A DNA stretch of 64,000 bases from positions 112,771-176,770 of the forward strand of contig RWJK01001951.1 of assembly GCA_004335835.1 (NCBI GenBank), in the 5' to 3' direction. The DNA comes from Scenedesmus sp. ARA3 (lineage: Eukaryota > Chlorophyta > Chlorophyceae > Sphaeropleales > Scenedesmaceae). The position numbers and the translations under genes are program-made. The notes beneath the pieces are model-generated. The model did no database searches. It was given only the letters and a program-made list of their open reading frames with translations, and was not told the DNA's origin. The stretch's first letter is position 1. Every line of letters starts with the position of its first letter. Positions 25,701-56,287 of the stretch are shown piece by piece.

Positions 25701-28700
25701 GCAGCCTGCTCTGCTGCACAGGTGGCTGATGAGAGCTGCTTCAAGGAGGCCAACAGTTGGTAGCTGTGCTCTGTGCTGGCTGCCATGTCCTGCTCCTGCT
25801 GCTGCAACTCAACACAATCGTGCTGCTGCTGGTTGAGCTGGGCGCTGCCGACAAAGAAAGCACCTCCTGCGCTGCAGCTCACAATAGCGTCACTTGTCTC
25901 TGTCGGCTGCCCTGCCGTTTCTACTGCTCTTGGCCCCCTGCTGTCCTCTGACAGCAGCCGCAGGGAGTCAAGCAGCTGGTAGCTCTCTGTTATTGTGTCA
26001 GGCGACGCGACAACCTCATGCTGCTGCTGTTGCTGGGCCTCCCGCTGCTGGTGGCCTGCCTCTGAGCCTGGGCTGCTGAGCAGGTCTGCCAGGCTTGCAG
26101 CTTCATAGCCAGCTGCGGCGCCTCCAGCAGCAGCGGCAGCAGCAGGCACAGCACCACCAAGAGACACCTCCTGTGCGCCATCCTCACTTCTGCCATCCAC
26201 AGCAGCGCCACCTGCACTGCTGCCCCTCCCTCCGCCACTGGTCTGGCGGCTGAGGGTCTCCAGCAGGCCCTGCACACGCGCCCCGACATTGCGCAGCACT
26301 TCCAGGCTGCTGCCATGGTCGCGGGCACTCCTGCTGCTCTGCCTGCTGCAGGACCTGTCAGCCGACTTGAAGCTGCGCCTGCTGGGGCTGGCGCTGTATG
26401 GTGGAGGGCTAGCAGTGTCGCTGAAGGCGACGTCATGCGCAGCTGCAGGTGACTGCACTGCAGCGCCTGCTGCGGCTGCTGGGGTGCCTGTTGCCAGCTC
26501 CAGGTGCTCTGTGCTGGGCAGCTGCCACCGCTGCCGCGCCCTGCGTGCTTGCTGCCCATCAGCGCTCACGCTGAAGACGCTTACACTGCCGTCCTCATCT
26601 TGCTGCTGCCCTGGCATTGCCGCAGGAGTCGGGGCTGCGCCAGCTGCTTCAGGGTGGCCTGCAGCTGCCAGCAGGCAAGCAGGGGTGAGGCCAGGCTGTG
26701 CACTGGTGTCCACCTCGCCGGCTGCTGCAGCTACAACTGCCTGGCTGCGTTCTGCTGCAGCAGCATTTACTTCCGCCTCTGCTGCTGCACCTGCAGCGGC
26801 AGCCGCGTGCATCCTTTGTGGGATGCAGTCCTCTGGAAGCAAGGCACAGCTGTGCTCCGCAGCTGCACTTCGTGCTGGACTTGATGCACGAGCATCGTGT
26901 TCTGTTACTGCTGTCCGCAGCAATCGCGCATCAGTGTGCGATACGTGTGCAGGGCCATAACTCTGCTGCTGCTGCTGCCGCTGCAGCTGCTCATGCTGCT
27001 GCTGCTGCTCCCACAGCTGCTGCTGAGCCTGTTGCTGCAGGTGCGGCTGCGGCCACCATGCCTGCTGCTGTGCACCACCTCCAAGGGGCACACCTGCGCC
27101 CCCAGGTGCTGCACCTGCCATGCTGTCCAGCGGGCCTCCACCTGCTGCTGCTGCTGCAGCAGCAGCTGCAGCCAGCATAGCTTCTGTGCCTGCTGCTGCA
27201 AACGCTGCTGCACCCGCTGCATCTGCTCTCAGAGGCGAGGCCAGGGGGCTGCCTGACACAATGCCCAGCTCCACCCTGCCGTGCACATGGTGGTTCACAT
27301 CCAGCCGCGCCGCACCCATGCCAGCAGCACCTGCTGCCAGCATCGCCAGCCCATGCTGCTGCTGGTTTTGGTCCATCATCTGCAGCGCATCGCTTGGGTA
27401 GAACGGCCCGGTGCCTGCCGCTGAGTGGGGTGAGCCGGGCACGCCCCCGGCCATGCCAAAGGGGCGCGCGTACACGCCTGACAGCGGCGACTGCACTGTG
27501 TAGGTCTGGTGCGCTGGGCCACATGTCTCGCAGGTCTGGGAGGCTGCGTCGGCAGATGCCTGCAACCTGCACAGACACAACAGCAGCATTGCCGTTGTGT
27601 TGACAGGCATTCGGCAAAGAAGCTTATGAACACAGCAAAGCGAACCACATGCACACAAGCAGCCTCATGCAGAGCCGGTGGCTGCGCTTAGCAAGCTTTG
27701 CAGGCAAACCACGATGTTGCCGGTTTCATGCATAGCTTGTACGCTGATTCACCCATGCGGGCTGCCACAATCTGCCTTGCCGCCAGCTGCGTCAAAGTCC
27801 AGCTGCCGCCGTGCTGGGCTCTGGTCAGCGCCTGCCTCGCGTGCAGCGTCGCCCTGGCTGTGCGCAAGCTGCGGGGACGCTGGGGTTGGCGTGGGCCGCC
27901 GCGGCGGTGATGGCGGTGCAAACACTTGGATGCCGTAGTCCAGCACTGCACCGGCTGGCACCGCTGGCCGTGCAAACCTGCACTGTTTGGCGCTGCAGAG
28001 CAAGCAACAATGTCCAATGGTGAGACAGTGGTGTGAGCTGTGTTTTGTAAGCAGGTGCTGTTGCTCAAGACTTGTTGCTGTCACATCTCTGGCAGTGCAA
28101 TGATGTCTTCACTTTGGCACACTGGCTGCCACAGGTCTGTCACTGCATTTGTCGCAGAGCCTACCTGTCACTGCGCGAGCCAGGTGTCTGCCGGAGTAGC
28201 ACACTGCCAGGTTGCCGTGTCCGCTCCTTTGCAGTGCTGCCTTTGCCGCTGCGCCTGCCGCTGCCACTAAACCCGCCGCCACCAGCGGCGGATGGTGTGC
28301 CTGGCGCAGCCGGAGCAGCTGCTTCTGCCGGCTTTGGAGGGTCTGGCAGTGCAGAGAACTTCGCCAGGGCTGCAGCTGCAGCTGTCCTTACGGCAGCAAT
28401 CTTGTCATATCTAGCGTCTTCCAGCACCTGCAGGCAGTGCACATCAGGACTGCTGGTGTAACATGCGTTGCCTTCCAGCATCATCATTACTGGTACAGTC
28501 TGCACACGTCATAAAGAAGACCGCCAGGCTACGAGTCTTGTGCATGCAGAGATCCAGTCAAGCATCACATGGTGCTGGGCACACCCTCTCAACAGCCTCA
28601 CCTGTACTGCTTGTGGCTTGCGCATCACCAGCACCCGCAGCGCGGGTGTGGTGTGCAGCAGCCGGCGCTCCGGCTCACCAGCAGCTTCTGCATCCTCGTC

Positions 28701-30743: not shown

Positions 30744-33700
30744 TCAGGCAACAGATGCCTGGTGCATGGCCCGCACCGTTCCCTTGATCTCGGGGAACAT
30801 GGCTACAAGCACGGTCTCTACTAAGGTCAGCCCCAGGTGGTACATCAACGTCTTGCTCTGCATCATGCCATGGATGTCCCCCAAGCACTTCATGTAGGCG
30901 TTCTTGCCCAGCAGTGCCAGCAGCGGGGACGGCACAGTAGACGCGATCAGCCGCTGCCGCAGCTGCTCAGCCACCTCGTCGCAGTCTGCAGGTGGCGTCC
31001 AATCCAGGAAGTGCTCCGCGGTGATGGGCGGGCCCTTCGGCGGTACACTGCCCGCGGCTGCTGCGGCTGCGCGGGCAAACCACACGCCTCCAGGCCACAG
31101 CTGCGCCTGCAGGCGGATGAGGTGTCTGCTGATGCTGTCTTCAGACAAGCCGTTGGCCAGCTTTGTCTGCAGGAACTCGTCGATGGTGCCGCCAGCCACC
31201 AGTGACAGCAGCTGCCGCACCAACGTTATCACTGGCCGCCGCACAAAGCCTTGGTTCTGCAGCTCAAAAGCGCAGCTGACCACCTCATACAGAGGCACAA
31301 TGAGGCCCGTGCTGTCTTGCACGCAGTCCTGCCAGTCTGCTGCATCCTCCTGCCATTGCTGGCAGTCGCTGGTGGCGGCTGGGCTTGCCGGCTGCGCGTT
31401 GACAGCCCTGCTGAACTCACCAGCGCTGGACTTGCTGCTGCTGCTGCCCTGCTGCGGCGCCTTCGTGCCTGGCACTCCACGATCCACGGCTGGAGCACTG
31501 CCATGTGCCTCTTGCTGCTGAACATGCTGCAGCCGCCGCCCCTCTTGCGAAGCTGCAGCGTGAGCACCAGCAGCCTGAGCACCACCAGGGGGCACAGATG
31601 CGCTGAGCGCAGCATGCAACAGCCCCTGCTGTGCTGGCCCAAAGCCTACACGGTCAGATCTACCTACTGCTGCTGGCCTAGCACTAGTATGTATGGCGTC
31701 TAAAACTGCGCTGCTTGCTGCTGCTGACCTGGCTGGCCTGGGCTGCTCAGCCTCCAGCACACCAGAGGCAGCCGGCTTGCTGCCGATGCCCAGCGCGTCG
31801 CCAGTGTTGACAGCAGCTCTTCTCACAGCAGCCGCTGCTGCTGCTGCCGCCGCCACACCAAGCTGGCTGTTGCTGACTGGCATGCTGGTGCTCCGGCTGG
31901 TACCGGCTCCACTTGCCGCATGGTGCACAGCTGCCACTGCTGTGGTGCGCGTAGCGCTCCCTGCTGCCACTGCTGCCGCAGGATGCAAGCAGCTTTCACT
32001 GCATCCCAACAGCTGCTGCTGCCCGTCTACCCCACTGGCAGAGCGTGCTGCGTCCGACTCCTGCTTGCTAAGCTGCCGTGGCGTTCCGGCTGTGCGCTCA
32101 AAGGTTGCGCCCTCCACCACAAGGGAGTGCTCCGGCAACATCTTGTTGGGCACAGGCGGTGAGCTGGGCATCATGAGCACTGCTATGGCCTGCTGCTGAC
32201 TGAAGCTGGTGTCTACGCTGTCAACTGCCTGGAGCAGCTGAGGAGGTTGATCTGTCTGTGCTTGCTGTGCTACATGCGCCGCCCAATCCTGCTGGCTATG
32301 TGCTGTGGCGGGGACCAGAATATGTGCACAATTTCTGCTGCCGCTGCTGCTGCCGCTGCTCTGACCACCGTTGTGCTGAGGGGGTGCCACAGCTGCAACA
32401 ACGATAGCATGCTGCAGCACAGCGTGCGTTGTCTGCGTCATTGCTGTGCTGTGGTCCTGCTGCTGCATCGCACAGGCTTGGCCCATGGCCAGAACACCCT
32501 GCTGTACGGTGTGTGCTTGCTGCGGCTCGCAGGACAAGTAATCGCTGCTATGTGCATTCATTGACATTCCGTGACTTGTCCTCGTCCCTGCATCAGCCCT
32601 CGTGCCAGCCGCTGCTGGCCTGTTCTCTGACAGATACATCTGAGCTGAAGGATTGCTGCTTGAGGTACCTGCGCTACTGCTACCCTGAAGCTCCGCACTG
32701 GGGCGTCCACTTATGCTGCCGCTGCCGCTGCTGCGGCCTACGCTACTGCCGCACACCCTGCCAGTACCCTGTTCTGACGCTGCCTGGTGCTGCGGCTGCG
32801 AGGTGCAACTGCTGCTGCAGCAGCTCCCGTCGCTGACCTGCTGTGAGGGATTGTACCCGCCACCTACGCCCCGCCAGCTGTGCAGGCCAGCTGCGTCGTC
32901 CGAGCGTGAGCGGTGTGCCGACACGTCCACGTCAGCCGCAGGCTTGATGCCCTGCCGCTCATCCGCTGCTGCGGCCATGCTGTACAGCTCGCTCTGCTGC
33001 TCAAGGAACTGCGCGAGCTCCGGGTGGCTGCGCAGGAAGCTGCTGCACAGCAGCGCCTGCAGGTAGCAGTCCAGCTCGTCCCGCCGCTTCATGACAAAGG
33101 GAGCGTCTCGCGCTGTCAGCAGCCGCTTTGGTGGCAGGCTACAGGGCAGCTCCTTGTAATGTGGGGCGTCCTTGAGGCGCTTGTGCAGCGCTTCAAAGTG
33201 CCGGTACCTGCAGGCCCGCAGCACATGTCAGCTTTCAGCGAACCAGGCACTGTCTGCACTTTGTGACATGCGCCCTCATGCTGTCATGCATGCTGGATGG
33301 ACGCATCAGTCAACCAGATGTTGCCACTGCACCGTGGCGCAGCCATGGCTGCTAATTGTAAAGCACCACACGCAGTCCAGGGCGGCTGTGCAGCCCAAAA
33401 CATCAGTGCCCACCTGCGCGTGACGGTCCACTCGCCCCTGTTGTCAGCCACACGCACTTTGTACACGATGCAGTCCTTGCTGTCCAGGCTGAGCATCTCT
33501 GCACTGACAACCTGCGCCCGCAGCTTGCCGTGCGGCCGCGCCAGCAGCGCAGCCGCTGCCGCTGCAGCACCTGGCTGGCTACAGCCTGGCGACCACGGCG
33601 CTCTGCTCAGACCGCACAGTGCTGCAACCACAGGTGAGCGCGCGCTGCTGCTGCTGTTGCCGCTGCTGGCCACTGCTGGTCTCCCAAACATGCTGCCACT

Positions 33701-36389
33701 GGCCCCCTCACTGCTGCCCCAAGCTCCGGTAAAGCCCCCCGTGCTCATCGCCCTTGCTGCAGCAGCTGCTGCGGCGATTCTGTAGCCAGCCATGGGGTCT
33801 GGGCTGCTGCTGAGCTCCGCTGCACTCGCGCAGCTGCGCGGCGAGTCTGCGCCCACGGATGACGAGGGCGGGCTGCTGCCCATCACAGCAGCCATGCTGA
33901 CTCTGCCAGCACCCGGCCTGCAAACAAGTCACAAGCCCACTTTATGTAGCGGACCAGAACTACGATGCATGCCAAGCAGTTATGCCCACGCATGCACCCG
34001 CAGCTGACGTTGCTGAAAGCTATGCACGCTGCTGCCACCTGCAAAGTACCAGTGTTGTCCAGTAGCCTGCTGACGAGAACTAGCGCTGCTCACCTGCGGC
34101 GTAGTGACAGCTGCTGTGCTGCTGCCTTGACAGCCCCCATGCTGCCAAGCAGCGCCTGTGAAGCCTGCTGGCCTGCTGGCTGCATTGCTGAGGCGCCATG
34201 CCTGATGGGGCTGCTGCTTGGGGAGTCCCTCCACCTGCTGAATGTCTTGGCCATTGCAGAGCTGCCACTTGGCCAGACAGTTGCAGCTGCTGCTCCTGCT
34301 GCTGCCACTGCTGCTCTGCCAGGAGACTTGTTGCCTGCAGCATCCTTCACGTCCCCTAGGCTTCTGCTGCGCTTCATGAAGGATGCAGCACTGGCCTGCA
34401 GGAAAGTCACGGTGACTCATTGGTTCTGTTGAGTGTGCTCAGCACTGCCACACACAATGCCTTGGAAGAACATTGGTTTGAAGATAGTGCCACGCCTGAA
34501 CAGCTGTTGTGCAGCAGCCACACAGCTACATCGGCAGCACAATCCACTCACCCGTGCCAAGCCCTCTGGCACCACAGTGGCCGCATTCAGCAGTGATTTC
34601 CGGGAGTTGTGCTCGCTCTTGTGCCTGCAAGGCAGACGCACCATACCATGTCACCATGCCTGTAAACACACCATGTAATTTCACCAACCGCCTGGTTGCA
34701 CCATACAAGCGCAGCATGATGTGGTTACTGCTGAGTGCTGCTGTCGCCAGCTTGAACCGACTTGCGTGCACGTAACTCACTGGTTGCCGTGATCCTGCTC
34801 AGCTCTGCTGCTGTGGGCACCCTTCTGCTCAAACTCTGCTGCTGCACAAGCCATCTCCTGAGTGATGACCCGCTGGTTGGCGCCGCCGGCCATGACACTG
34901 AGCAGCAGCTGCAGCAGCAGGCGCAGCACAAACAAACTGTTGAGTTTCTAAACCAAAGCACCATGGTCAGCACTCACAGTTAGCAGCCCAGCTGGACAGC
35001 TGCAGGCGGGCACCGCTGGTGGCTGGCTTGCTGCTGTGCCATCCGCTGCTGCTTACCTTGTTGATGCTGTACGGTGCCAGGGATGCCAGCGTGCTGCGCA
35101 GCAGGCACGTCGCAAACAGCTCCCGCAGCATCGCCCGCATCATGGGGCACGCCCTGTCCTCTGGCGGCATGATGTGCACCACCACAGCCTCGGACAGGCG
35201 CTTGCAAGCCTGGTGCTGCCCATCTGGGGTGCTGAAAGCAGGGTGCAGCAAGTGCTGTTTGTTCAGCACGTTCCTGATTGCTGCATCAGCCTCTGCTGCT
35301 GGCAGCGCTCTCAGGGCTGCTGGGCCCAGAGTGTCAGCTGCTGTGCGATACAGCTGCAAAGTTGAGCACAGTGCCGATGAGCAGTCCCTACAGGCATAGA
35401 AATGACAAAGAAAGTACATCATGCGGTTGAGTTTAGTGTATCAACAGCTTGCTGGGCGAGTCATTGTGGTGCGTCAGCTGCTAGGTGCAAGCATGGTTTG
35501 ACACGTTGGTTGTGACGTGGTGTGTGCACTTGCTGTTCGTATCATTGCTTGTATGCTTCAGCTTCCCTGCTAAACTTGGCCCATAACATGTGCCGTACCT
35601 GATCAGCAGTGAGGTCCAGTCAAGCCGCTTGGCCCGCCTGCTGGCCTGCCCAAATGCGTGGTTCAACTGCCAGCGTACTTCAGCTGGAAACTCCCGGTCT
35701 GGAGACAGTTGACCAAACCACGCATCATAAATGAACTGCAGGGCAGCAAGCAAATGCATGGTTGGTGACGTCATTCGTTTTAACAGCGGCACCACGCCCT
35801 CGCTGCTGCTACTGCGGCTGCAACTGCTTGCACAGCTACACGGCGCTTGGCAAAAACACTTGCAGCTGGCCAGACGAGCACCAATAAATAGGCGCTGCTG
35901 CCCTTTGGCACGCATATACATGGCTGGCCGTGGCATAGCACATACCTCCTGTATGATGCTGTTGCACAGCTTGTCCCATGCTGATGCCACCAGCTCGCTG
36001 CCTACAAGCTTTCTCCATGCATCACGGTCCCTGTGCTGCCTTGGGCCCTTTGGGGTGCCTGGCTGCTTGGAGACCTTCTCCCTGCTCTGCTCATATGCGT
36101 CAGCTGCCGCTGCTGCTGCGTGTTCGCTGCTGCCACTGCTCGGAGGTGGCCATGCCAGCCGGCTGCGCACATCCAGGTGCGCTGCCAGCAGCCGCAGCCC
36201 GACCACCACTGCGACTGCCACAACCCAGCGCGCTGTTTGACTGCTGCACCCTGTATAGCAGTTTAGTTGGCAGAGAAGCAGCATGTCCGTGAGATGCATG
36301 TGGCTAATGTGCGGAGGCTGACAGTTTGACCATCCTGACAGATCCAGTGAAGCTGTGACCTTGATGATGATCGCAATGGCTGCCTCCAT
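30744..36389 (-). CDS. Sorting nexin with PXA, PX and nexin-C domains
   Basis: A peripheral or anchored endosomal protein family that binds phosphoinositides; relatives are animal SNX13/SNX19/SNX25 and plant PXA-PX-nexin-C proteins. Exons in transcript order: 36389-35946, 35735-35599, 35387-35057, 34908-34781, 34624-34552, 34395-34094, 33917-33414 and 33207-30744. Every phase matches, giving 1,460 residues. A hydrophobic segment (about 54-70, WVVAVAVVVGLRLLAA) suggests a membrane anchor. The PXA domain (about 125-345) shows FGQLSPDREFPAEVRWQLNH and a block ending LLIRDCSS. The PX domain (about 600-720) contains DNRGEWTVTRRYRHFEALHK, with the RRYxxF phosphoinositide-binding arginine, and LPPKRLL. 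The nexin-C domain fills the last ~165 residues (FELQNQGFVRRP, RLQAQLWPGGVWF). About 560 residues of Ser/Gln/Ala-rich sequence separate PX and nexin-C. No RGS domain is seen. The first exon start is uncertain; ATGs at 36299 and 36284 are alternatives. Confidence 0.9.
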
Positions 36390-39300
36390 GTGTGCTGAAA
36401 GCCCCTACATGTTGCATAATCCTTATAACTAGCAAGTCTCACTCGCAGCATTGTAAAGTAGGTTACTTGCTATGCTGTCAGGGGCAGTACAGCAGCATGT
36501 GCTATGCTACATGGACATTCACATGCTGCTCGCCTTCATGAGCTTCTGCAACAGTTTGACTCACATTCAAGGACCCCAGCCACCAGACAGCAGCACAGCA
36601 ACAGCTTCAGCAATCGAAAGGCAGCCCGGGAATCGCATGCAGCGACTCCGCAAGCAACCGCTGCTCTAGACAGCATCGAGTTTGGGGTTTCATATGGTCA
36701 GGTATATTGTTTTTTTATGCGTGCATAGTCCTGGCAGCAATTAGGAGTCCGAATCTCAGGCAGTACTATACAGCACCACGGGCTCAAGGTCTGTCCCTTC
36801 AAAACAAAGACTCTCTGCAGCAACCAAGCACACATCAAAGCCGTTACAGCATCAGTCTACTGGCTGAGGTTCACGGGTTGAAGCGCACCAGGAGTGACAA
36901 CCTTGATTGACGTGACAGTTGTCTATATCGGAGCTGACGACTCATCATGAACACCAAGGCTCTTGGCATGTTTCAAGCCATCTAAGTTGTGTGTACTGAC
37001 CATCACCCGCACCTTTCGGAAACTCGCGACTCTCTTGACCTGATATGTGAGACAGCTCACGTAGAACGCAGCATGGAAGACAAGCTTGACGAACATAAGC
37101 TGAAGGTCAGCCATCACGCCAATGACCACAAGGCCAAACTGGTAAGGTGGCCTTTTCTGTCCCGCTTCCTCTCGATCCTGGTCGTGCAGCAGTCTAAGAG
37201 CCTTCAAATGCGTTTGTGTGCCAGTGAAATTTGTTTTTAATTGTGAGTGCGCGCTTGCGATGCATAATTCTTGCAGGAGTCCAAGTCAGCAAGGATGGAG
37301 AGACACAGCGGTGAGGGTCCTACTGTCATCTGCGAACACACCTTATTGTACTAGTTTTGGTCTTTTGATGTTGTGTAGCTTACTGTCGGAAGGGCTTGGC
37401 TGTCCAAAGTACACGTGCCCAAACACAGATCCAAGGCTTCCGGAAATGCAGAAGTTGGTGCACACGCAGCGTGCCTCAAAACAACTTGATGCAGTAGGAA
37501 CAAGAGTTTTGTGACATCAGTGTGCATTGGCTCACGTCGTGCCAGTGCTCCCTGTTGGACAGCTTAGCAGCAGCACGTATCAATGCTGCAGCAGCAACAC
37601 ATATCAATGCTGCTGCTGCAATCCATCATGCAGCTCAGCTTAACAAGGACGTCCTGCAGCCAGCTACAACCAGTCACAACCGGACCAGCAGCACCGCCAC
37701 CACAATGACAGTGCTAGCCGCATAACAGCAGTGGCACCCTTGATTAAGGCTTGCCCATCGCAACATCCTCAGTGCTGCTGAGACCACATCACCACGGATG
37801 CACTTTTGACAGGCCCCTGTTACACGGCCGACTGTCGCTGCAAGGTTGCCGCTATAGTTTACGACATACACATGGGCCACAGCATTTGCAGGTGTTTTGC
37901 TGCACTCCCGGTTGACTTACTGCGCATGGCACTGGCATTGTCCTAATGCAGGCACCGGCCACCCCATCAAAGAGCAGGCAAAGAAGGGAGGCGGCGGTGG
38001 TGGCAATTGGGGCAGGTGGGCATAGCAGTAGCAGGTGGCTTGATGCAGTGTCTGCTGGCTGCTGGCTGCATCCATTTGTTGGAGGACACGGCTGCGCCTG
38101 ACAGCAGCGTAGCCCCACATGTCACTCGGGGTGGTGCTTGCAACACTGTCTGCCGGGACTTGATTTTGAGCGTCATCACAGTGCAAGCCCTTTAACCTGT
38201 TCTCAAGCCATGATGGGTCATTATTAGCTTCAAAACCAGCCATCAAGGGTCAAGCTACCCAACTGCAGTCGCATTAGCAGTGTTGTAGCGGCTCAAGCTG
38301 TGTACCATGGTACGGCTCTTTGACTGCTGCTGTTGCCGCTGCTGCTGTCATTGCTGCAGCTACAAGGACGACATTGAAGAGGCTAAGGCTGAGTTGTAGG
38401 AAGCAGCAGCATGTGTTAGGTGGATGAGGGCATAACAAGCACAGGAGACCAGGATGCGTTGTATGCAGCCGGTGGCAGGCGCCATGCAGTTGCCGCCGTG
38501 TCCTATGCAGCCTTTACATGTGCCTGATGCTTACTGTGAGGTGTTGTGACTGTTGTGACAGTGACTATTGGGCGTTTTGTAGTGAGTGCTGCGGCCTGTG
38601 GATGCTATGGTGCAGATGGCTTGCTCACCCTGCTCTGGCCGAGAAACACCAAGTCAGGCTTGGTTCAATGTAAATCAGCATGTGCATGGGTGCTTGCATG
38701 TAGAGGTAGAGCTGGTTGTAGTGCTGAACATGTACACTATGACCATGGATGTCAGCCCCTGCACGCAGTAGGATTGCTGCTCTGCAGTGCGGTTTTTGCC
38801 CAACCACCAATCTTGTGAATGTTGACCAATGCTACAAGTGAATTGCTGCCTTCTAAAAGGTTGTTAGGGTCGGTGTGGTTTTTCCCTGTCCACATTGCTG
38901 CCTGTCACAGGCATGTAACGGTTACATGACACTGGACCGCACGAGATCATGCGGTACATCTGTTGTCCCGTTGCATGATGCTTGGTGTGGCAGCTTTGTG
39001 CTTCTACATGCGTCTGCTGTCACACTGTCACAGCACTCCAGCTGGCCCAGGACAATGGCTGACACCTGTTTTCCCTCTTGTCAGCTTAATTGAGTTCAGC
39101 TTTCTGTTGCGCTGTGTGTGCAGCAACGTGTATGGCGCTTATGTAATTGGTACGCTTTACATCTTTCCTGCGTGGACTGCATCCGTAACTCGACCGATGT
39201 GTGCTGCACTGACGGCTGTGACCAAACAAAAATGCGGTGGCCGAGAACTTGGAAACCTTGGAGGCAGTGAACTGCAGTTACACCGCGCGCCGACTGATGT

Positions 39301-45472: not shown

Positions 45473-48400
45473 ATGGGGCAAGGGAGCAGCAGCACAAGAA
45501 GTAGACCCTTTGACGACGAAGGCTACATCGTCCCAGCAGGTAATGCAGCAGGCGTGGCCATTCTGCTCAGGCGGTTGATGAGCTGCACAGCATGCCAGCG
45601 CAAGCAGCATGCGCGATGTGTATGCAGCACGGCAGGGCTGGACTGACCTACGCTGGTGCTGCTGCCTGCAAATTGACTGCTTTGCAGGTGCAGCTGAATC
45701 AAGGCAGTCAGCGTCATCTAGGACTACGAGTAGTCAGCCAAGAACCCCGGCAGCAGTAGCATCAGCAGAATCAGGGCAGAGTCAGAGTAGCAGCAGCACA
45801 GCAACCCCCAGCAGTGGTGGTCAACAGGTGAGCACGGGGTGCTGTTGACTGCAGCAGGGACTGTTCTGACTGTGCTATTTACAAATGACTGTTCCTGTTG
45901 AGCCAGCACTTCCGGGGCTTCAGTTGACTTCTTCGGCTCACTTTGTGTGTGCCTGCTTGCAGACCCCGGCAATGGCTCAGGCTGCAGCGCAGCAGCCTGC
46001 AGCAGCAGCACCTGCAGCCCCAAGGACAGTACCTGTACATAAAAGTACTGCCATCATCCCAGGATGGTCACGGCCGCTGTCTTCGCAGCAGCTCACCATA
46101 GAATGCCAAAAAATCACGCAGCCCAGCAGGACGGCGTCAGCAAAGGAGTGCTATGGTGTGATGGAGCTGGAGGTCATGAAGTTCGTTGCCTACTGCGGCG
46201 GTCTGACCATCAAGCTGCGAGTTGATGACCTGCAGCATGGGCAGGTTGACAGGTGAGGATCCAGCACTGCTCTCAAGCAGCAGGAGCACCCAAAAAGCAT
46301 TGTTGACTGTGACCTGGCGCTGTCACCAACTCAGCTGCAAAAGCTCACAGCTGTTCTGTTTCCAATGTTCAACTCAAAGCCTGAGCTCACATACTTCCGT
46401 GTCTGCAACTGCCTTTGTTGCCTGCAGCGTGACCTGGGGCCTTGCCGCAATGCGTCCGTGCCACGCTCTGGCAAACAGCAGTGCAGCTGGCAGCGGTGGC
46501 AGCAGCTCACCAGATCGACGGGCAGGCACTCCTACTGGCAGCCGTAGCGGGAGCAGCGCAGGGTCCAATGCTATGAACAAGGCACACCCAACCACTCCTG
46601 TGACTGTGCAAAACCCTTCACAGAAGCCGCTGTATGCCATCTGCACCACAGCAACTGTGGCCCGCGTGACCAAGGGAGACGTGTTGTCAATGGACCTAAG
46701 CCCCAAGGAGGATGGCCAGCCAGTCATCATGGTGACGCTCAGCCACAACGACAGCGTGCTGCTGCGGGCGGCGCTGCCCTGTGCCAGCATTGCAGCGCTG
46801 CAGATGTACCCTTTTGTGACCGTGCTGGTGGGTGGCTGCGCCCAGTACTCACCTTATGCCATTACCCGAGCCTGAAACCTTATGTATACTTTGAAGCCAT
46901 AACCCAAGCTATTGCAGTTGCCATGCGTATATAGTCTGAGCATGCTAGGACGCGTGCTTCAATACATCATAGCCTGCAGTTGCTTTGGCTTTCTTGTTCA
47001 GCATGTAAGTGCAACCGTGTTCACCTAGCCTTACACCTGCTGTGCTGCTGCTGCTGTTGATGCTGCACTGTCCCTTCTGCATGCTCCTTCCTTGCAGTCT
47101 GGCATGGTTGTGTCGCTGCATGAGGCGCTGACCCCAAGCCCGCTGTTCACCTGGTACTCGCCAACATCAGCAACAGCGGACATCCAGATGGCAGACCTGG
47201 ACACGTGCGTCAAGTACAACACTGCTGCCAACACCATCAGCAGCGGTGTCTCGGAGTTCCACGGTTCCACCACCTTCACTGGTGGCCGCCACAGGTGGAC
47301 AGTGCAGCTGGACAACATGGGGCAGCTGCCGGGGCACATCTTTGTAGGTTTGGTCAATTCGGAACCCAACCAAGCCCCCAGCAGCAGCATACTGGCATCA
47401 GCACTGCCTGCCGCAATCAGCAGTCGCATGCTAGCCATCCCGGGATCCCCACTGGCAGCCCAGCCTGCAGCTGCAGGTGGTGTGCCAGTGTCGCCTGCTG
47501 CAGCAGCAGCAGTCTCGGCAGCTGCTAGCCCTGCTGGCACTTCAGCAGCAGCTGCTGCTGCAGGCATTGCAGCGTTGGGCCAACTGGGGCCAGCTGGGCC
47601 TCAGCAGCGCAGGTGGGGTGTGTGGGTGAAGCTGCCAGGGGCGCCGTCAGCTGGGGCTGCACCTGCTCAGGCCACCGCAGCTGTGCCGCCCAAGCTGGGA
47701 GATGTGCAGTTTGTGGAGTCTGTCAACAATCACTGCTGCATCACGGTTGACCTAGACCTGATAGGAGGCTACGCCAAGTTCTTCAGGAACGGCCACCTGC
47801 TGGGCCAGGCCTTCACAGGCTTGACAGCTCCTATCAGCCCTGCATTGGCATTCCTGCAGGTGAGGAACAACACACGTAATGTTAATACACGTTGTGACTA
47901 AGCCAGCTAGAGCGATGTTGCCTTGAGAAAGCAGCAGATATGCATGCATTGTGGTGCCACGACAACAGCAATGCAATGTCTGTATTGCGTCACTGCTGAG
48001 GCAATGGGTCAGCTTTGTTGTCAGCTGGGGTGGGCCTGACTGCTGACCTGGCTGCACTGCTGCTGCATGCAGGGCACCAACCAGCACCTACAAGCTGGTC
48101 TAGTGAACATCACCAAGCTGCAGCAACTGGACCTGGAGTGGAACCCTGAAGCGTGCAGCGGGGACCTGCGAGTCACTGGGCGTGTGGTGCAGAAGGTGTC
48201 AGAAGTGTTTGGTGACTACAGCACAGTGCTGTGCAACCAGGGGTTCATCAGCGGGGTGCACCTGTGGCTGATCAAGGTCAACAACCTGTCAGAGCCAGAC
48301 AGCATCTTCATCGGAGTGTGCAGGGGCTGCATGCCACTGGACCAGGACCCCCAGGTGTGTACTGGTGGCTCTTGGGGTTGCCCAGATTGCACTTCATGAG

Positions 48401-51400
48401 CTGCCAAGGAGATGCCAAACAACAGGCTAGGGATTAGCAGCACATGTCTTCCTAAGCAACCATGTCGGCTACGATGCAGCTTGTCGGCGCCAGTCACGCG
48501 GATGCGTGACACTTTTCTTCGCTGCCATGCTTGCTGTGTGCACTGCAGGACCTGCGTGACCGCACCTACTACCTCAGCAACGGCGTCATCCGGGTGGGCG
48601 GCCGCCGCGTGGCAACAAACGCAGCTGCCTTCACAAAGGGCGACATTGTGGGTGTGGTGCTGGATGCGGACCAGGGGGAGATTGTCTTCCTGCGCAACGG
48701 CATTGAGCAGGGACGAGCACGTGGCATCCGTGGCCGCCTGTACCCCTTCGTGTCCTTTGACAGCGAGCAGGACCAGATCACACTGCTGGGTAAGCTGTGT
48801 CAAGCCGGCAGGTGCTGAGTTTGCTGCTGGGCACATGGTGGCGGATGCTCAGGCTGACATGAGGATTAGTGGTGTGGAGGGCCGGTGCTGCTTCTTTTGT
48901 ACATGCTGTGCACACATTTTTCTGGTGTTTCTTGCTGCTGACTAGTCTGTGCCTTTGACTTGCAGGCTCTTACACGCTGCCATTGAATCGCACTCCCCGC
49001 ACCCTGGCGGACATGGAGTGGGACACCGTTGGCCGCAGTGGTGACATCGAGCTGTCCAGCAACTGCCTAACAGCCACCAAGACCTCCAGTGCCAGCCCAT
49101 CTACTGTCAGGGGCACCATTCTGTACAACGACACAGGTGTACATGAGTTCCACGTGATCCTGGACAGCTTGGGACCTGATGGCATCTGGGTGGGTGTGGC
49201 CAGCCCTGACATGGACCCAACCAAGTGCGTAGGCGACGTTGGCTGCGGGTGGGCCCTGCACAGTGATGGCGACAGGCGATTCAACGGACGGGAAGAGGAG
49301 TTCACAGGTGTGTGGTGCTGGCTGTGTTTTATGCACTTTGCAATATATGTGCGCCACCAGGTTGTACAGCACAAGCTTACCAACACGTGCTGGCTTTCTG
49401 CATAACACTGTGCTGGCATCACAGCGACACACAAAGTTGCTGTTGCTGCTATCCTGTCATACATATGTCTGGTTTGCTGCTGCTGCTGTTGCTGCTGCTT
49501 CACAAACAACAAACATCACATCATATTCCTCATTGGCCACAGGCATGCAGCTGTACTGATATGTTGCAAAACATTTGTTGCATGCAGGTGCCTTCAAAAA
49601 CGGCGATGTGCTGACAGTTGCCATGGACCTGGCCAACGGCATCCTGCGCTTCAGCCGCAACGGCATCCACATGGGTGACGCATTCACCGGGGTGAAGGGG
49701 CCGCTGGTGGCAGTGGTGACTCAGGCCAGTGAGGAGAGCAAGGTCACAATCCAGAACAGGCCGACAGTGCTTAACATGGGCGAGTACACGGGCGAGCTGA
49801 GGTGCGTGCAGGCTGCAAGAAGCCAGCCAGTACCAGATGTAGTGACAGCATGCTGACTGTTGTTCTGCTGTATTTATCTGTGCAGCGGAGGCTGTGCAGT
49901 TATGTGGAACTCAGCCACCAGTGTCTTTGGGTATGTGTCATGTTGCTGCTTCCTAGTGCTGAACATGCTGTTGCTGACTCTTCTGCTGCTGCTCCCGCTG
50001 GCTCTCCTGCTGCCAGGTGGGATGAGGTGCGTGCTGGCAGGGACCTGCACGTCATCGACGGCCTCACAGTCACCAAGATGTCCAACGAGGGCGGTGACTA
50101 CGCCACGGTCCTGGGCACCCTGTGCGTTGCCAGCGGCCAGCACACCTGGAACGTGTACATCAACCACGTGGAGGACAGCAACCTGTTCATTGGTGTGACT
50201 GTGGGCGGCCATGACCTCAACGCAGACCCACAGGAGATGAAGAGCCGCACATACTACCTCAGCAACGGCACCATTCGTGTTGCTGGCAAGCTGGTGACAC
50301 GCTGCGCCGAGCCATATGCTGAGGGTGATCTTGTGACTGTGCAGCTTGACATGGAGCAGCACCACATCTCCTTCTACAAGAATGGCATGCTGCAGGGCGC
50401 CGGAGACGGCCTCCCAGGTGAGAGCAGTGCCTGTGGTTTCGGTGATAACGACAGCTGTAACCAGATGAGCCGCCACATTACCAACTGCTTGTGCGCCTTT
50501 CAGCTACAGTTCAGCAGAGTGATAGCCAAGCTGCCAGCCATCCTCCTACTGGAGGGATCATCACTGCATGTGTTCTGCTTCCCTTGCGCTGCAGAGGAGG
50601 TGTGGCCTTATGTGTCGCTGGACAACATCATGGACAGCATCACCCTGCACAGCAGCAACATGTTCCTGGACCTGGCGCACAGCCTCAAGTGGAATGGCCA
50701 GAAGTGCTGCCAGTGGATTCAAATCAGTGAAGATGGCACCACAGCCAGCCTCAAGCCACATGCGCAATTCGACTCCTTCTTGGGACAGGCAACGGTGCTG
50801 GGGCTGCGGGAGTACAGCCGCACAGAGGTGCACAGCTGGGTCGTGCGCCTGGAGCAGGTGGGTTGCCCTTGTGTGCAGGCACTCGCACAGCCGTGGCTGT
50901 CCAAGCTTTGTTCTGCAGAAGCTGCAAGCTGCTTGGTTTTAATGTTCAGCAGGCAGGCAGGCAGCATAATCTGCAACATTGACTCACACCTCATCACGTC
51001 ATGATCACCAACTCACACCTGGCCTGCTCCTGCCCTGTGACTGCCTGTGCCTTGCAGCCGCCCAACACAAACATTGCCAACTTCCTGGTGGGTGTGGCAC
51101 CGGCCTCCATGGACCTCAACCACAGCATTGGGCAAGAGGGCTGCGGCATTGGCCTGGACTACTACGGCTACATCTACATCAACGGCAAGTACTTCCATGT
51201 CAGCAACCTTGCCAACTGGCAGCAGGTCGCCAAGCCCTGCCGCGGCTCCACTGCGCGCCACAAGGGCAAGGCTGGGCCCATGTTCAGGTTCCACGAGGGC
51301 AAGTGTGAGATCACCCTCACGCTGGACCTCAAGGAGGGAACCCTGCGCTTTAGCAGCGGTGGCCACAGCATTGGAACACTGGCCAATGTCAAGGGCCCAA

Positions 51401-54400
51401 TGCACGCAGCGCTGACCCTCACCAGCACCAAGCAGGCAGCACAGATTGCAGCAGGTGAGCCTGGTGGGCTTTGATGGCTGTTCTGTGCTGGCACTGCTTG
51501 GTTGTCCCTTCGCGCAGCTCTTTCCTGTGCTGAGAAGCTGGTGTCATATATAATGTGCTACATGTCAGATATGGTTGTGTTCTGCATTTTCCTCCAACAC
51601 TGCCAAGCATAGAACGGTGCACGAACCCTGAACATGCTGATGTCTGCATATTTTCCTGTTAGGTCCCATTGGCAAGACAGAGCACACTGCTGAGGAGCTG
51701 GTCAACATCCTGAAGGCCAAGGGCCACCTTGGCAACCAGCGCGCAGAGGCAGCAATGTTGGTTGTGCCACGCGACCTGTTTGTGCCGCGCGACCGGCACC
51801 GTGAGGCCTTCCGGGACCAGAAGGTGACCGTGCGCATGCCAGATGGCTCCACGCTCATCATGCCCAACCCCAGCTTTGTGGCAATGGCCCTGGAGAAGCT
51901 GGACCTGCAGCCGGGCAGCAGCTTCCTGGATGTGGGCTGCGGCAGTGCCTACGTGACTGCTGTGGCAGCCTGCATGATTGGCCCGACTGGCACGGTGCAT
52001 GGCATCGAGTGCCTGTCCAGCCGCCTGGAGAACGGCCGCAACAACCTGCGCCTGCTGAAGGAGCGCCTGCCACCCGAGCACGTAGTGAAGAACCTGGCTG
52101 TTGCAGGCTCAGTGCAGGCTGCCATCAACAATGTACACCTGTCATTGACCAACGTGCTCATCCCTGAGTGCACGGATGGCATGCTGTACGATGCCCTGTA
52201 CTGCGACAACTCCCTGTCAGAGGAGGATCTGCCAGCATTCCTGTCGCTGCTGAAGCCCAATGGGCGCATGGTGGTAGTGATTGAGGAGGATGTGCTGCTG
52301 ATCGCGCGGAGCAGCACCGACGCGCACGACTACAAGCGGGAGAGCCTCACCAAGATCACAGGCGACTTTGGCGAGCTGGAAGATCCCACACCCTGGGAGG
52401 TGCAGGAGGCGGTGCAACGGATCAAGCAGCGGGAGCTGGAGAAGGGCCTGGCAAAGGCAAAGGTGCGCAGCACAGAATACGCAGCATCAGGACAGTGTGG
52501 GCGTAGCTGCTGGAGTGCAGCACAGTGTACAGCTGCAGCTGCCAGGCTCTGTTGGCCTGTCTACTGTGACTAGCGTTGCAGCTATTGCCAGTGCTGGAAG
52601 CATGCCAATGCTCTGCTGATCGTGCTTTGCAACTGGCTTGAATTTAACTGACATGAAGGTAATCTGTGTGTAACCTGTATGCTGAACACACAGGGGGAGG
52701 TTGGCAACCTGCGCAGCAATGAGCTGCTGGACCTGCAGAGTCGCATGGGGGCAGCAATGCAGCGGATTGCAGAGCTGGAGACGGCCCTGCAGCGCAGCAA
52801 CGGAACAGCAGGCAGCAGGCCGGCTGGCAACGATGATACCCGGGCTGTGATCAGGGACAACAAGTTCAGGCGTACACCGCGCATCTCACCACACAACAGC
52901 GCACGCAGCCCTGGCTCGGACCCCAGCGCATTTGCAGGCAGCGCGTCAGACAATGTCAAGATGCGCACTCGCCAGGTGAGATGTGCACACTGGCTACGGC
53001 TGCGTGCAATGGTGTGCTGCAGCAGTTTCGCTAACTGTGTGGACGTGCATGCTTTCAAGGCATCCTCCAGCTGCACATCAGCTGCTGGGCCGTCTCCAGC
53101 TCTGCAGTCCGCTGCATGCCCAATGTATGTGAACCTCAATCAATTCTGCTCATTCAGTTCTGTTGTTGACATCTGTGGCACAAACTGAATACGCTGGCCT
53201 TGCCATGCTGCTGTGGCCAATCCTGCAGGTGCTGGATGACTCTGAGGAGCCTTTGATCCGCTCAGAGAAGCTTGCTTTAGAGGAGAAGCTGAGCTGTGGC
53301 AGCGGCAAGATTGGCACATTACTACAGGCACCAAGCAGCTGCGCAGACGTCATGCAGGCGTTGGGCGTGCAAACGCTGACAGTGGCGCAAGTTGCCAGCG
53401 TGACAGCTGGTGTGCAGCCGCAGCAGCGTGCTGGCTTCCAGTTGTTTCAGGGCAGCTTCCGTGGCACACGCGTGTCTGCCTGGCGGCTGACCATCAACCA
53501 GCCCATCAACACGCTGGAGGTGCACAGGGCTTACTCCAGGTTCTGTGCCGCACACCCCAACGTGTGTGCAGTCATGGGCATCTGCCTTGAGCCGCTGGAC
53601 ACAGCAGAGCCCATGGATGAGGATGGCTGCGGCAGCCCCACACGCGCAGCAGCCCAGCAGCAGCAGCAATGGCAGCAGCAGCCCCTGCAGGAGGTAGAGG
53701 AGGCTGGCTGCCACCTCTGGGTGCTTGAAGAGCACCATGGCAGCCAGACCCTTGCAGCACGCGTGGAGCAGGGCCTCATCAGCTGGCAGCACTGCCTGTC
53801 CATCGCACAGGATGTAGGTTCTGCTCTAGCCTACCTGCAGTCGCTCAAGCGCATCTGCCCCATCACGGCTGATGCGGGTGCTGAGGTGCTGGACAGCAAT
53901 GCCCTGGCAGCTCCGCTGTCTCCACTGGCAGTGGCGCAGATGCTGGTGTTGGACAATGTGCAGGTCAGCACTGCAGCGACGGCCAAGATTAGCTTGGTGC
54001 CAGCGTTGCTGACGCAGCTGGAGTTTGCCCTGTGTGTCGCGCCTGACACACAGCGGGTGGCAGAGGTCAGCTCATTGCTGCTGCCCTACATCCACCCAAC
54101 TTCCATGTTCAACAGCATCAGCAGCGCCGGCACACAGCAGGCAACTGGGCAGGCCTTTGACGGGCTGTACAGTTATGGTACTGTGCTCTTGCAGTTACTG
54201 ACTGAGCGCAGCGCCCCAGGCCTGCTGGGGACGGTGCAGGCAGCTATTCAGCAGCGGAGCTTAAGCAATCTGGTGCCACGCACGCCAGGTGCAGGCCCGG
54301 ACAGCGAACAGCTGGCAGCAGACTTTGCAGCACTAGCATTGCGCTGCTGTGGCTGCCAGCAGCAGCAACATCAGCAGTCGATAGCAGCAGCTTGGCCTGC

Positions 54401-56287
54401 AGACCAGCAGCAGCAACAGCAGCAGCAGCAGTCATTGTCGTTAGATCTGCATGTGCTACCGGCGCTGCAGCAGCTGCAGCGCAAGCTGGAGGCGTTAGGC
54501 ACATCTGCCATGTCCTGGGAGCAGGTCGAGGAGCTGCTGATGATGCCCCTGCAGCCCAGCACCAGCAGCAGTGATCCCACCACGCGGCGCTGGGTGCGGC
54601 AGGACTTCAAGATGCGGCGCAAGTTGTTCCTTGAGGAGGTAGCAAAGATGGCAGTTGAGGGGCCAATCCACAAGATCGAGGTCCGCCGCTCTCGCTGCTT
54701 CAAGGACAGCGTGGCTACGTTCAGTGGCAAGGTGAGACGACTGTATGTGCTACAGTCGGCCCACAGCTTACTGCGGAAGTGCGTCTGCAACTTAGCTACT
54801 TATGTTCGGCATCTGGCAGATAGCAGCTCTGCCTCTGCCTGAAAGTACAACCAGCCATTTGATACACATCGCGGCTGCAGCCAAGGCGCTGACGCATCCT
54901 GCTTGTGCTGCATCTGCTCTGTTGCTGCTCCATGTAGGGCCAGAATGTCTGGCGGCAGCCGCTCAAGGTCACCTTCATTGGTGAGGCAGGCATGGACAGC
55001 GGTGGTGTGACGCGCGAGTGGTTCAGCAGCATATGCGCTGCGCTGCGCCGTGGCAGCCTGGACCTGTTCTGGGCTGGTGGCCCCATTCGCAACCAGCTGT
55101 ACATCAACCCGCTGTCCAACAGCGCAAGCCACCTGAAGCGCTTCCACTTTGTGGGGATGCTGATGGCCAAGGCGCTGCTGGAAACTGCTGCGCGTGGCAA
55201 GGAGCTGGGCCCTGTGGTGCTCAACCTCAGCTTCTGTGAGCCATTCTGGAAGCTGCTGCTGGGCATCCCACTGGGGTTGATGGACCTGCAGGCACTGGAC
55301 CCCACCGAGTTCAGGAGCCTCATGCAGATCCTGCAGCTGGACATTGATGGGTGAGTGGCAGGCACAGTGGCTGGCACACCAGCCCACTTGATCAGCGGCA
55401 GTTGTCGCTGCTCAGCTGCACCTCTTGTTATGTTTTATGCACTCAGGTAATGATGCTGGCGACAAGCAGCCTGCTGCTGGTCACCCAGCTTTACTGAAGT
55501 GGCAGTGGATACACAGCAGCTGACATTGACACTGGCCTTTCCCCCTGCTTGCCCTGTTGCTGCCTGCAGGCTCATCTTTGAGAACTTCACCTGGAATTTC
55601 CAGCACACGCAGCGCGGCAACGGCGCCAAGGATGAGCCAGAGATTCCCGCGCTGCCCAGTGGCGCCAGCCCCTTCAGCGGCGACAGCAGCTCGCGCGTTG
55701 ACGCCAGCATTGCACTCAAGCCTGGCGGCAACCACGTCAAGGTCACCAACACCAACAAGCGTGAGTACGTGCTGCTCAAGGCCCAGAAGATGCTGTGGGG
55801 CACCGTGGAGGCGCAGATGAGTGCAGTGATCGACGCATTCCACAGCCTGGTGCCGCGCGAGCTGGTGGAGAAGTACGGCTTCTCACCCCTGGAGATGCAG
55901 ATGCTGGTGTGCGGCGAGCAGAACATTGACATTGCTGATCTGCGCCAGCACTGCAAGTACGAGGACGGCTACACCGGCAAGGAGCCGCAGATCGCCTGGT
56001 TCTGGCAGGCAGTGGAGAGCATGGACGAGTCGCAGCGGCGTGCACTGCTGCAGTTCTGGAGCGGCAGCGATGGCATGCCAGCTGAGGGCTTTGGCTCCCT
56101 GGAGCCCGCCTTCCACCTGGTCAGCGTCGACCGCATGTATGACCGCAACGACCGCACTGCGCGTCTGCCGGCAGCGCACACCTGCTTCAGGCAGCTGGAC
56201 CTGCCCCGCTACGCAACTTATGAGGAGCTGCGGGAGAAGATGATCACAGCAATCACCATGGGCCAGGGCTACATGGCGCTATCGTGA
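45473..56287 (+). CDS. Multidomain HECT E3 ubiquitin ligase: SPRY repeats, PCMT-like, pseudokinase, HECT
   Basis: Seventeen exons: 45473-45539, 45688-45827, 45963-46252, 46428-46827, 47098-47859, 48073-48354, 48549-48789, 48966-49307, 49588-49801, 50017-50417, 50595-50857, 51058-51454, 51663-52462, 52694-52975, 53229-54731, 54938-55350 and 55570-56287. All junctions are phase-consistent, 2,504 residues. About six SPRY-like modules fill residues ~95-1265 (repeated FxxNG and YPFVS blocks). A PCMT-like domain spans ~1275-1510 (SAM loop LDVGCGSA 1355-1362). A coiled coil (~1630 region boundary, LLDLQSRMGAAMQRIAELE) follows. A kinase-like region spans ~1697-2003 (YSYGTVLLQLLTE near the end), without HRD or DFG. 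The HECT domain is ~2110-2504: VRRSRCFKDS, GGVTREWF, WFWQAVESMD and catalytic Cys2471 in HTCFRQLDLP. HECT ligases take ubiquitin onto that Cys and pass it to substrate; SPRY modules bind partners. The 5' end is uncertain. MGQGSS would fit N-myristoylation. Confidence 0.9.

Follow-up and report, generated by a model that had tools for sequence, protein, structure and literature searches.

Does a single algal gene join a PCMT methyltransferase fold to a HECT ubiquitin ligase, and if so, what does the methyltransferase fold do there? The question is raised by a gene in the 64-kb window analysed here, which is the whole stretch of 64,000 nucleotides taken from contig RWJK01001951.1 of Scenedesmus sp. 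ARA3. A first-pass annotation had proposed that this gene sends isoaspartyl-damaged or C-terminally modified proteins to ubiquitylation, with HERC1 as a model for SPRY and HECT in one protein. We confirmed its observation in nearly every detail. The coupling of a PCMT fold to a complete HECT domain in one gene stood; the isoaspartyl link and the HERC1 model did not. The explanation that we favour, at about even chances of being right, is a HECT-type E3 ligase, probably membrane-anchored, in which SPRY modules and a repurposed PCMT fold that binds S-adenosylmethionine (SAM, also AdoMet) serve as receptor or regulator and a pseudokinase serves as a docking or allosteric element.

We rebuilt the gene from the DNA, setting the exons via splice sites by reading frame; the earlier start, end and totals were known beforehand, the exon list was not. 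The same totals were obtained: 17 exons in phase on one strand, with 7,515 coding bases for 2,504 residues and no internal stop. All introns are GT-AG, 135-280 bases each and ~3.3 kb summed. The gene is free of N, and the sole N run of the window lies at 1853-1883.

45473..56287, forward strand: whole coding span, 17 exons, 2,504 residues; rebuilt model, junctions 3-16 backed by the homologues P0004 and P0006

A search with the PCMT-to-HECT query scored 7,974 candidates and returned 55 proteins at E ≤ 1e-5, of which 13 (P0001-P0013) make up the family, so that PCMT and HECT were found together in one protein elsewhere. Precomputed Pfam labels for SPRY, PCMT and HECT occur in 11 of the 13. P0005 has its start cut off and lacks SPRY; P0011 has no PCMT label, the SAM-loop stretch being absent from its predicted protein; and P0013 is missing part of the HECT N-lobe. 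The named members come from six green-algal species: Tetradesmus obliquus, Scenedesmus sp. PABB004, Volvox africanus, Haematococcus lacustris, Chlamydomonas incerta (P0012) and Dunaliella salina. T. obliquus (Sphaeropleales) and D. salina (Chlamydomonadales) are both Chlorophyceae, as are the other four. P0004-P0007, P0010 and P0011 bear no species name, and some members are already called 'HECT-type E3 ubiquitin transferase' or 'TOM1-like' in database records. Identity to the window translation was 98-100% in each region for P0001 (T. obliquus OEZ86_011784) and 97-100% for P0002 (OEZ85_008612, another T. obliquus assembly).

A profile search (26 matches, 7,976 scored candidates) added no further member, its first outsider being a UPL1-type protein labelled Picsp_1, taken for Picochlorum. 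Neither the 55 nor the 26 matches held a protein with PCMT and HECT outside the family. Both searches scored only the candidates sharing most words, and the profile search recovered nine of the 13 known members (missing P0005, P0007, P0010 and P0013), so the range of the family may be wider. A search with the PCMT domain found 60 proteins; by identity, 48 (P0056-P0103) resemble pieces of the same gene and 12 resemble other PCMTs. Viral carriage was rejected on a single scan of viral contigs, whose 15 pattern matches included no relative.

Could two genes have been wrongly joined, by assembly or by the choice of exons? The model of this locus comes from DNA and protein homologues alone, which leaves that reading some room. 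We observed the same join in all 13 database proteins. Two of these lie on 11-Mb contigs from other assemblies of T. obliquus, and five further named species are represented. P0004 (2,381 residues on an 8,465-base contig) and P0006 (2,415 residues on an 8,436-base contig) run in unbroken frames through SPRY, PCMT, pseudokinase and HECT; one begins midway in the start region of the SPRY block and the other at the N-terminus, and both reach the HECT domain. When aligned to the window model, both showed zero inserted residues within 10 residues of junctions 3-16, and thus no insertions at the joins from SPRY to PCMT, from PCMT through exon 14 to pseudokinase, or from pseudokinase to HECT. Junction 14 is weakly conserved (9/21 and 4/21 identical in P0004 and P0006), and junctions 1-2 fall in the poorly conserved N-terminus. 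Introns are read through in other members; P0005, for example, gains 52 residues at junction 13, and P0003 gains 62 at junction 12. Because the contigs of P0004 and P0006 have no room for ~3.3 kb of introns, mRNA is their most likely origin, on which the source tag 'lgn' is silent. These data speak against an assembly join or split transcripts, as the first-pass annotation had considered; we reject an assembly or annotation artefact and regard a wrong join as extremely improbable.

We next describe the methyltransferase fold. Two family alignments were used, A1 with 10 of the 14 family sequences (P0001, P0002, P0009 and P0013 left out) and A2 with nine (P0001, P0002, P0005, P0011 and P0013 left out).

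51663..52462, forward strand: exon 13, PCMT-fold domain and start of the next helix
51848..51880, forward strand: STLIMPNPSFV, in place of the (T)ISxPH of true PCMTs, by alignment with homologues
51920..51955, forward strand: SFLDVGCGSAYV, SAM-binding motif I; in LDVGCGSAYV 8 of 10 positions are invariant in nine sequences
52199..52234, forward strand: YCDNSLSEEDLP, in place of the HVGAA of true PCMTs, by alignment with homologues
52370..52411, forward strand: GELEDPTPWEVQEA, near-invariant linker behind the PCMT fold, 12 of 14 positions invariant in nine sequences

The predicted PCMT-like domain (Pfam, 2.1e-21) is certain to be present, and its SAM loop is borne out by LDVGCG, kept in the window model and by every homologue (12 of 13) except the predicted P0011, which is without that stretch. 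Among solved structures, PCMTD1 comes nearest to the domain by sequence profile (2.4e-15, profile positions 8-222 of 266). PCMTD1 scored ahead of PCMT1 in the sequence profile (59.7 vs 51.4 bits), whereas the structure Z favours PCMTs. When the whole model was cut into six pieces and scanned with Pfam, no SOCS box matched at E ≤ 1, a search that a divergent box could escape.

Does this domain act on isoaspartyl residues? In the earlier proposal, isoaspartyl (or else other damaged C-terminal) residues would be recognised or methylated by the domain, and the proteins that bear them would pass to HECT. A Pfam 'PCMT' label does not imply isoaspartyl repair. We observed that the ISxPH and HVGAA signatures are absent from all 14 family sequences. 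The same genome carries both on contig C874, where a separate PCMT has ISAPHM and HVGAA, and ISAPHM on C1518. Two observations limit the argument from motif loss: strict ISxPH matched only 6 of the 12 non-family matches (P0104-P0115), and PCMT matches on C683 and C398 of the same genome had neither motif in the scan. Judged from these motifs, the isoaspartyl form of the proposed function is unlikely, and we give the reading as a whole little weight. On C874 (L010), two separate open frames each contain TISAPHMHAIC, ~110 bases apart, as if a PCMT exon had been doubled.

The altered site is under constraint. In the nine-sequence alignment, the altered segment YDALYCDNSLSEEDLP has 10 of 16 positions invariant, compared to 41% of all 266 positions; together with the 8 of 10 in motif I, this speaks against mere decay. 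For the ten homologues from outside T. obliquus and Scenedesmus (P0004-P0013), identity to the window was 58-70% in the PCMT domain, 67-76% in HECT and 35-48% in the pseudokinase. The PCMT domain is thus near HECT and well above the pseudokinase, which argues for strong constraint on the PCMT fold.

An active methyltransferase for another acceptor, such as a specific carboxylate, would methylate its target before ubiquitylation. The intact SAM loop fits such an enzyme, and so does the Thr or Ser that P0004-P0013 carry close to where PCMTs have their serine. In T. obliquus and Scenedesmus the residue there is Ile (STLIMPNP), and the PCMTD1 precedent, so far as passages of its literature go, points to lost activity. 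We consider this reading very unlikely. Alternatively, the domain could be a SAM sensor: binding of SAM or S-adenosylhomocysteine (SAH) would reshape the protein and switch the HECT ligase with methionine supply, like SAMTOR. The SAM motif is kept while the isoaspartyl signatures are changed, as a sensor would have it, and SAMTOR is described in passages of PMC11514484 as a methyltransferase-fold sensor that reports SAM to mTORC1. In our data no link to methionine metabolism appeared, and the altered substrate segment is partly conserved, which suggests that it binds something. We consider a sensor possible, although we would not bet on it.

The precedent nearest to the repurposed receptor or regulator that we favour comes from the PCMTD proteins. 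Passages of PMC10798966 and PMC11514484 report AdoMet binding by PCMTD1 with no isoaspartyl activity detected, and passages of PMC10798966 describe PCMTD2 as a substrate receptor for CUL5 that acts on IL2RB and CD247. Taken together, these make a receptor role the nearest precedent. According to the same passages of PMC10798966, PCMTD proteins are separate subunits that a SOCS box joins to the cullin-RING ligase.

The ligase end of the protein is a predicted HECT domain, of whose presence we are likewise certain.

54938..56284, forward strand: HECT domain, exons 16-17; Pfam 4.7e-71, closest Protein Data Bank (PDB) chains NEDD4L (1.7e-52) and HUWE1 (4.7e-50)
56183..56185, forward strand: codon of the HECT catalytic Cys 2471 (LPAAHTCFRQLDLP), aligned to NEDD4L LPRAHTCFNRLDLP

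The domain is complete both by Pfam, whose match spans residues 32-372 of 376, and in the alignment with NEDD4L, catalytic Cys included. At E ≤ 1e-3 there were 77 distinct PDB sequences; the best 60 of the 77 are all HECT ligases, with NEDD4-like chains scoring best. Ten of the 13 homologues have the HTCF catalytic motif, and the other three end or leave the frame before it. We placed the domain in a tree of 41 HECT domains, drawn from 73 sequences and including 8 of the 14 family sequences (P0001, P0002, P0005, P0007, P0010 and P0013 left out); three rows are short pieces, and the tree leaves out the NEDD4, HACE1 and E6AP types, which this analysis met solely as PDB chains. The family formed one clade (100/100) on a long branch, apart from HERC1, which sits behind a starred branch of length 0.89. 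Ten HUWE1/UPL1 rows lie on one side of a 99/96 branch with the family outside. HERC1 kinship was rejected on the basis of this tree. The genome of the window holds 22 HECT matches on 9 contigs. Other SPRY-HECT proteins were also seen (P0122-P0124, P0126 and P0127; 4,659-5,082 residues, UBA-type domains, one named Pythium brassicae); three of them, two as short pieces, were in the tree and fell apart from the algal family.

What lies between the PCMT fold and HECT?

52694..52975, forward strand: exon 14, judged by eye to be a probable coiled coil with a disordered linker
53229..54731, forward strand: exon 15, pseudokinase (RLK/IRAK-like fold) and helix into HECT; family profile and low-confidence structure model
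53472..53489, forward strand: VSAWRL, with Trp where VAIK has its lysine; Trp invariant in 10/10 sequences, placed by eye
53985..54011, forward strand: KISLVPALL, where the DFG motif would stand, lacking its Asp; by alignment, placed by eye

Exon 15 alone had no match in Pfam or the PDB, and the kinase fold surfaced only with the family profile. In Foldseek, the low-confidence model of exon 15 met only kinases among the 50 matches listed. In these data exon 15 folds as a protein kinase of the RLK/IRAK type, in a model of low confidence. No HRD or DFG was recognisable in the ten-sequence exon 15 alignment, with placement by eye. The kinase-like region of the first-pass annotation was thus recovered as a kinase fold without recognisable catalytic residues. 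The window model has 501 residues over the exon 15 span, compared to 422 in P0001 and 366 in P0002, so that these public T. obliquus models are 79 and 135 residues shorter there (53229-54731); the stretch with NLVPR, which both are missing, is conserved in the other aligned homologues.

Upstream of the PCMT fold lies the SPRY block.

46056..47145, forward strand: conserved N-terminal region, residues 101-315; closest profile-profile match to any other module at E 0.013
47146..48132, forward strand: SPRY-like module, residues 316-573, split by a low-complexity insertion; C-terminal part vs module 4, 3.9e-9
48133..49012, forward strand: SPRY module, residues 574-743; profile-profile comparison, block in the Pfam scan
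49013..49796, forward strand: SPRY module, residues 744-911; Pfam and profile-profile comparison
49797..50683, forward strand: SPRY module, residues 912-1076; Pfam, module 3 vs 5, 1.4e-30
50684..51453, forward strand: SPRY module, residues 1077-1266; module 4 vs 6, 3.4e-18

Pfam gave two passing SPRY stretches in each of two pieces scanned. In a profile-profile comparison of six candidate modules, modules 3-6 (residues 574-1266) were mutually related, the weakest pair being 5 vs 6 (2.2e-4). By these comparisons, the presence of at least four SPRY modules is certain. Residues 101-315 as a sixth SPRY module were unsupported, given the inter-module match above. Residues 574-1266 had 12 PDB neighbours at E ≤ 0.01, including TRIM9, RanBP9/10, SPSB2, ryanodine receptor and HERC1; the resemblance to the protein-binding SPRY domains of TRIM9, RanBP9/10 and SPSB2 is weak, 3.2e-5 at best.

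The protein begins with a short conserved signal.

45473..45493, forward strand: MGQGSSS N-terminus, N-myristoylation-type signal; pattern in the window model and in 6 of 13 homologues

MGQxxS, which we take to be an N-myristoylation pattern, forms the first residues of P0006, P0008 and P0011. It is internal in P0001, P0002 and P0003, behind upstream extensions of 32 residues in P0001 and P0002 (where the public T. obliquus annotations begin) and 192 in P0003. In the seven remaining members the start is absent or not the same. Among 39 non-family proteins, one likewise fits the N-myristoylation pattern at its start. The shared pattern supports the start codon chosen in the first-pass annotation, and its conservation suggests membrane anchoring via myristoylation.

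How might these parts work together? In the explanation that we favour, N-terminal myristoylation would hold the ligase at membranes, and targets would be recognised by four to five SPRY modules and the repurposed PCMT-fold domain. That domain would still bind SAM or SAH with its isoaspartyl site lost, and by analogy with PCMTD1/2 in CUL5 ligases it may be a substrate receptor or regulator. The pseudokinase beside HECT could be a hinge, as a docking or allosteric element, and HECT would transfer ubiquitin via Cys 2471. A bolder version is tentative: a new lineage of membrane-anchored HECT ligases, its named members all Chlorophyceae, would hold a SAM-binding fold with a rebuilt active site inside the ligase, and the methyl-donor state or a self-written methyl mark would pick SPRY-bound proteins for ubiquitylation, the pseudokinase relaying the signal to HECT.

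Three other features of the window lie outside this gene. Sorting-nexin pieces at 30750-36404 (reverse strand), with PX and Nexin_C in one open frame and PXA in another, are probably one gene. An exon of an ornithine/arginine decarboxylase-type protein lies at 18748-19428 (reverse strand; Pfam 3.2e-54). A 1,197-codon open frame at 24074-27664 (reverse strand) has no Pfam match at E ≤ 0.01 and is 24% one residue; it may be low complexity only.

Has this domain order been described? The first-pass annotation knew of no such protein. We found none in the literature on PCMT/isoaspartyl, HECT, SPRY, cullin, pseudokinase and algae, judged by the titles and abstract starts of the papers listed. A survey of plant HECT genes in subfamilies I-VI (Marin 2013, PMC3712016) counts nine in C. 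reinhardtii, one of them 'Other', in the parts covered here, and names armadillo, IQ, UBA and ubiquitin among the subfamily domains; its main text, as distinct from figures and supplements, has no mention of SPRY, PCMT or isoaspartate. That unclassified gene may be an orthologue of the algal fusion. As far as our searches show, the protein is an undescribed variant among HECT ligases. The arrangement recurs in related algae, which suggests that proteins are selected for ubiquitylation in a way not described before. The interest of the protein is that two unrelated ligase classes took up the same methyltransferase fold; this suggests a use for the fold itself in selecting what is ubiquitylated. 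The role of PCMT folds in animal cullin ligases (PCMTD1/2) is, in passages of PMC10798966, only starting to emerge. Because the presumed receptor and the catalyst are in one chain here, a single purified protein, together with point mutants, would allow a test of the question.

Among known systems, PCMTD1 and PCMTD2 share a PCMT fold in a ubiquitin ligase setting and give the best solved-structure match by sequence profile. Unlike these separate SOCS-box subunits, the algal fold is fused to HECT, with no SOCS box in the Pfam scan. PCMT1-type methyltransferases share the whole fold and SAM motif I, whereas the substrate-site signatures of the algal domain are replaced. HERC1 also has SPRY and HECT in one large protein, but its HECT lies in a different clade, and the algal protein had no RCC1 or WD40 in the Pfam scan. 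HUWE1, TOM1 and UPL1 have the nearest HECT among the long proteins found (~33% identity); the algal HECT forms a separate, fully supported clade, and their further Pfam domains were not found in the algal protein. RLK/IRAK-type kinases and pseudokinases (RKS1, BIR2, DRIK1) resemble algal exon 15 in its predicted fold and missing recognisable catalytic residues, whereas the algal pseudokinase is fused upstream of a HECT domain.

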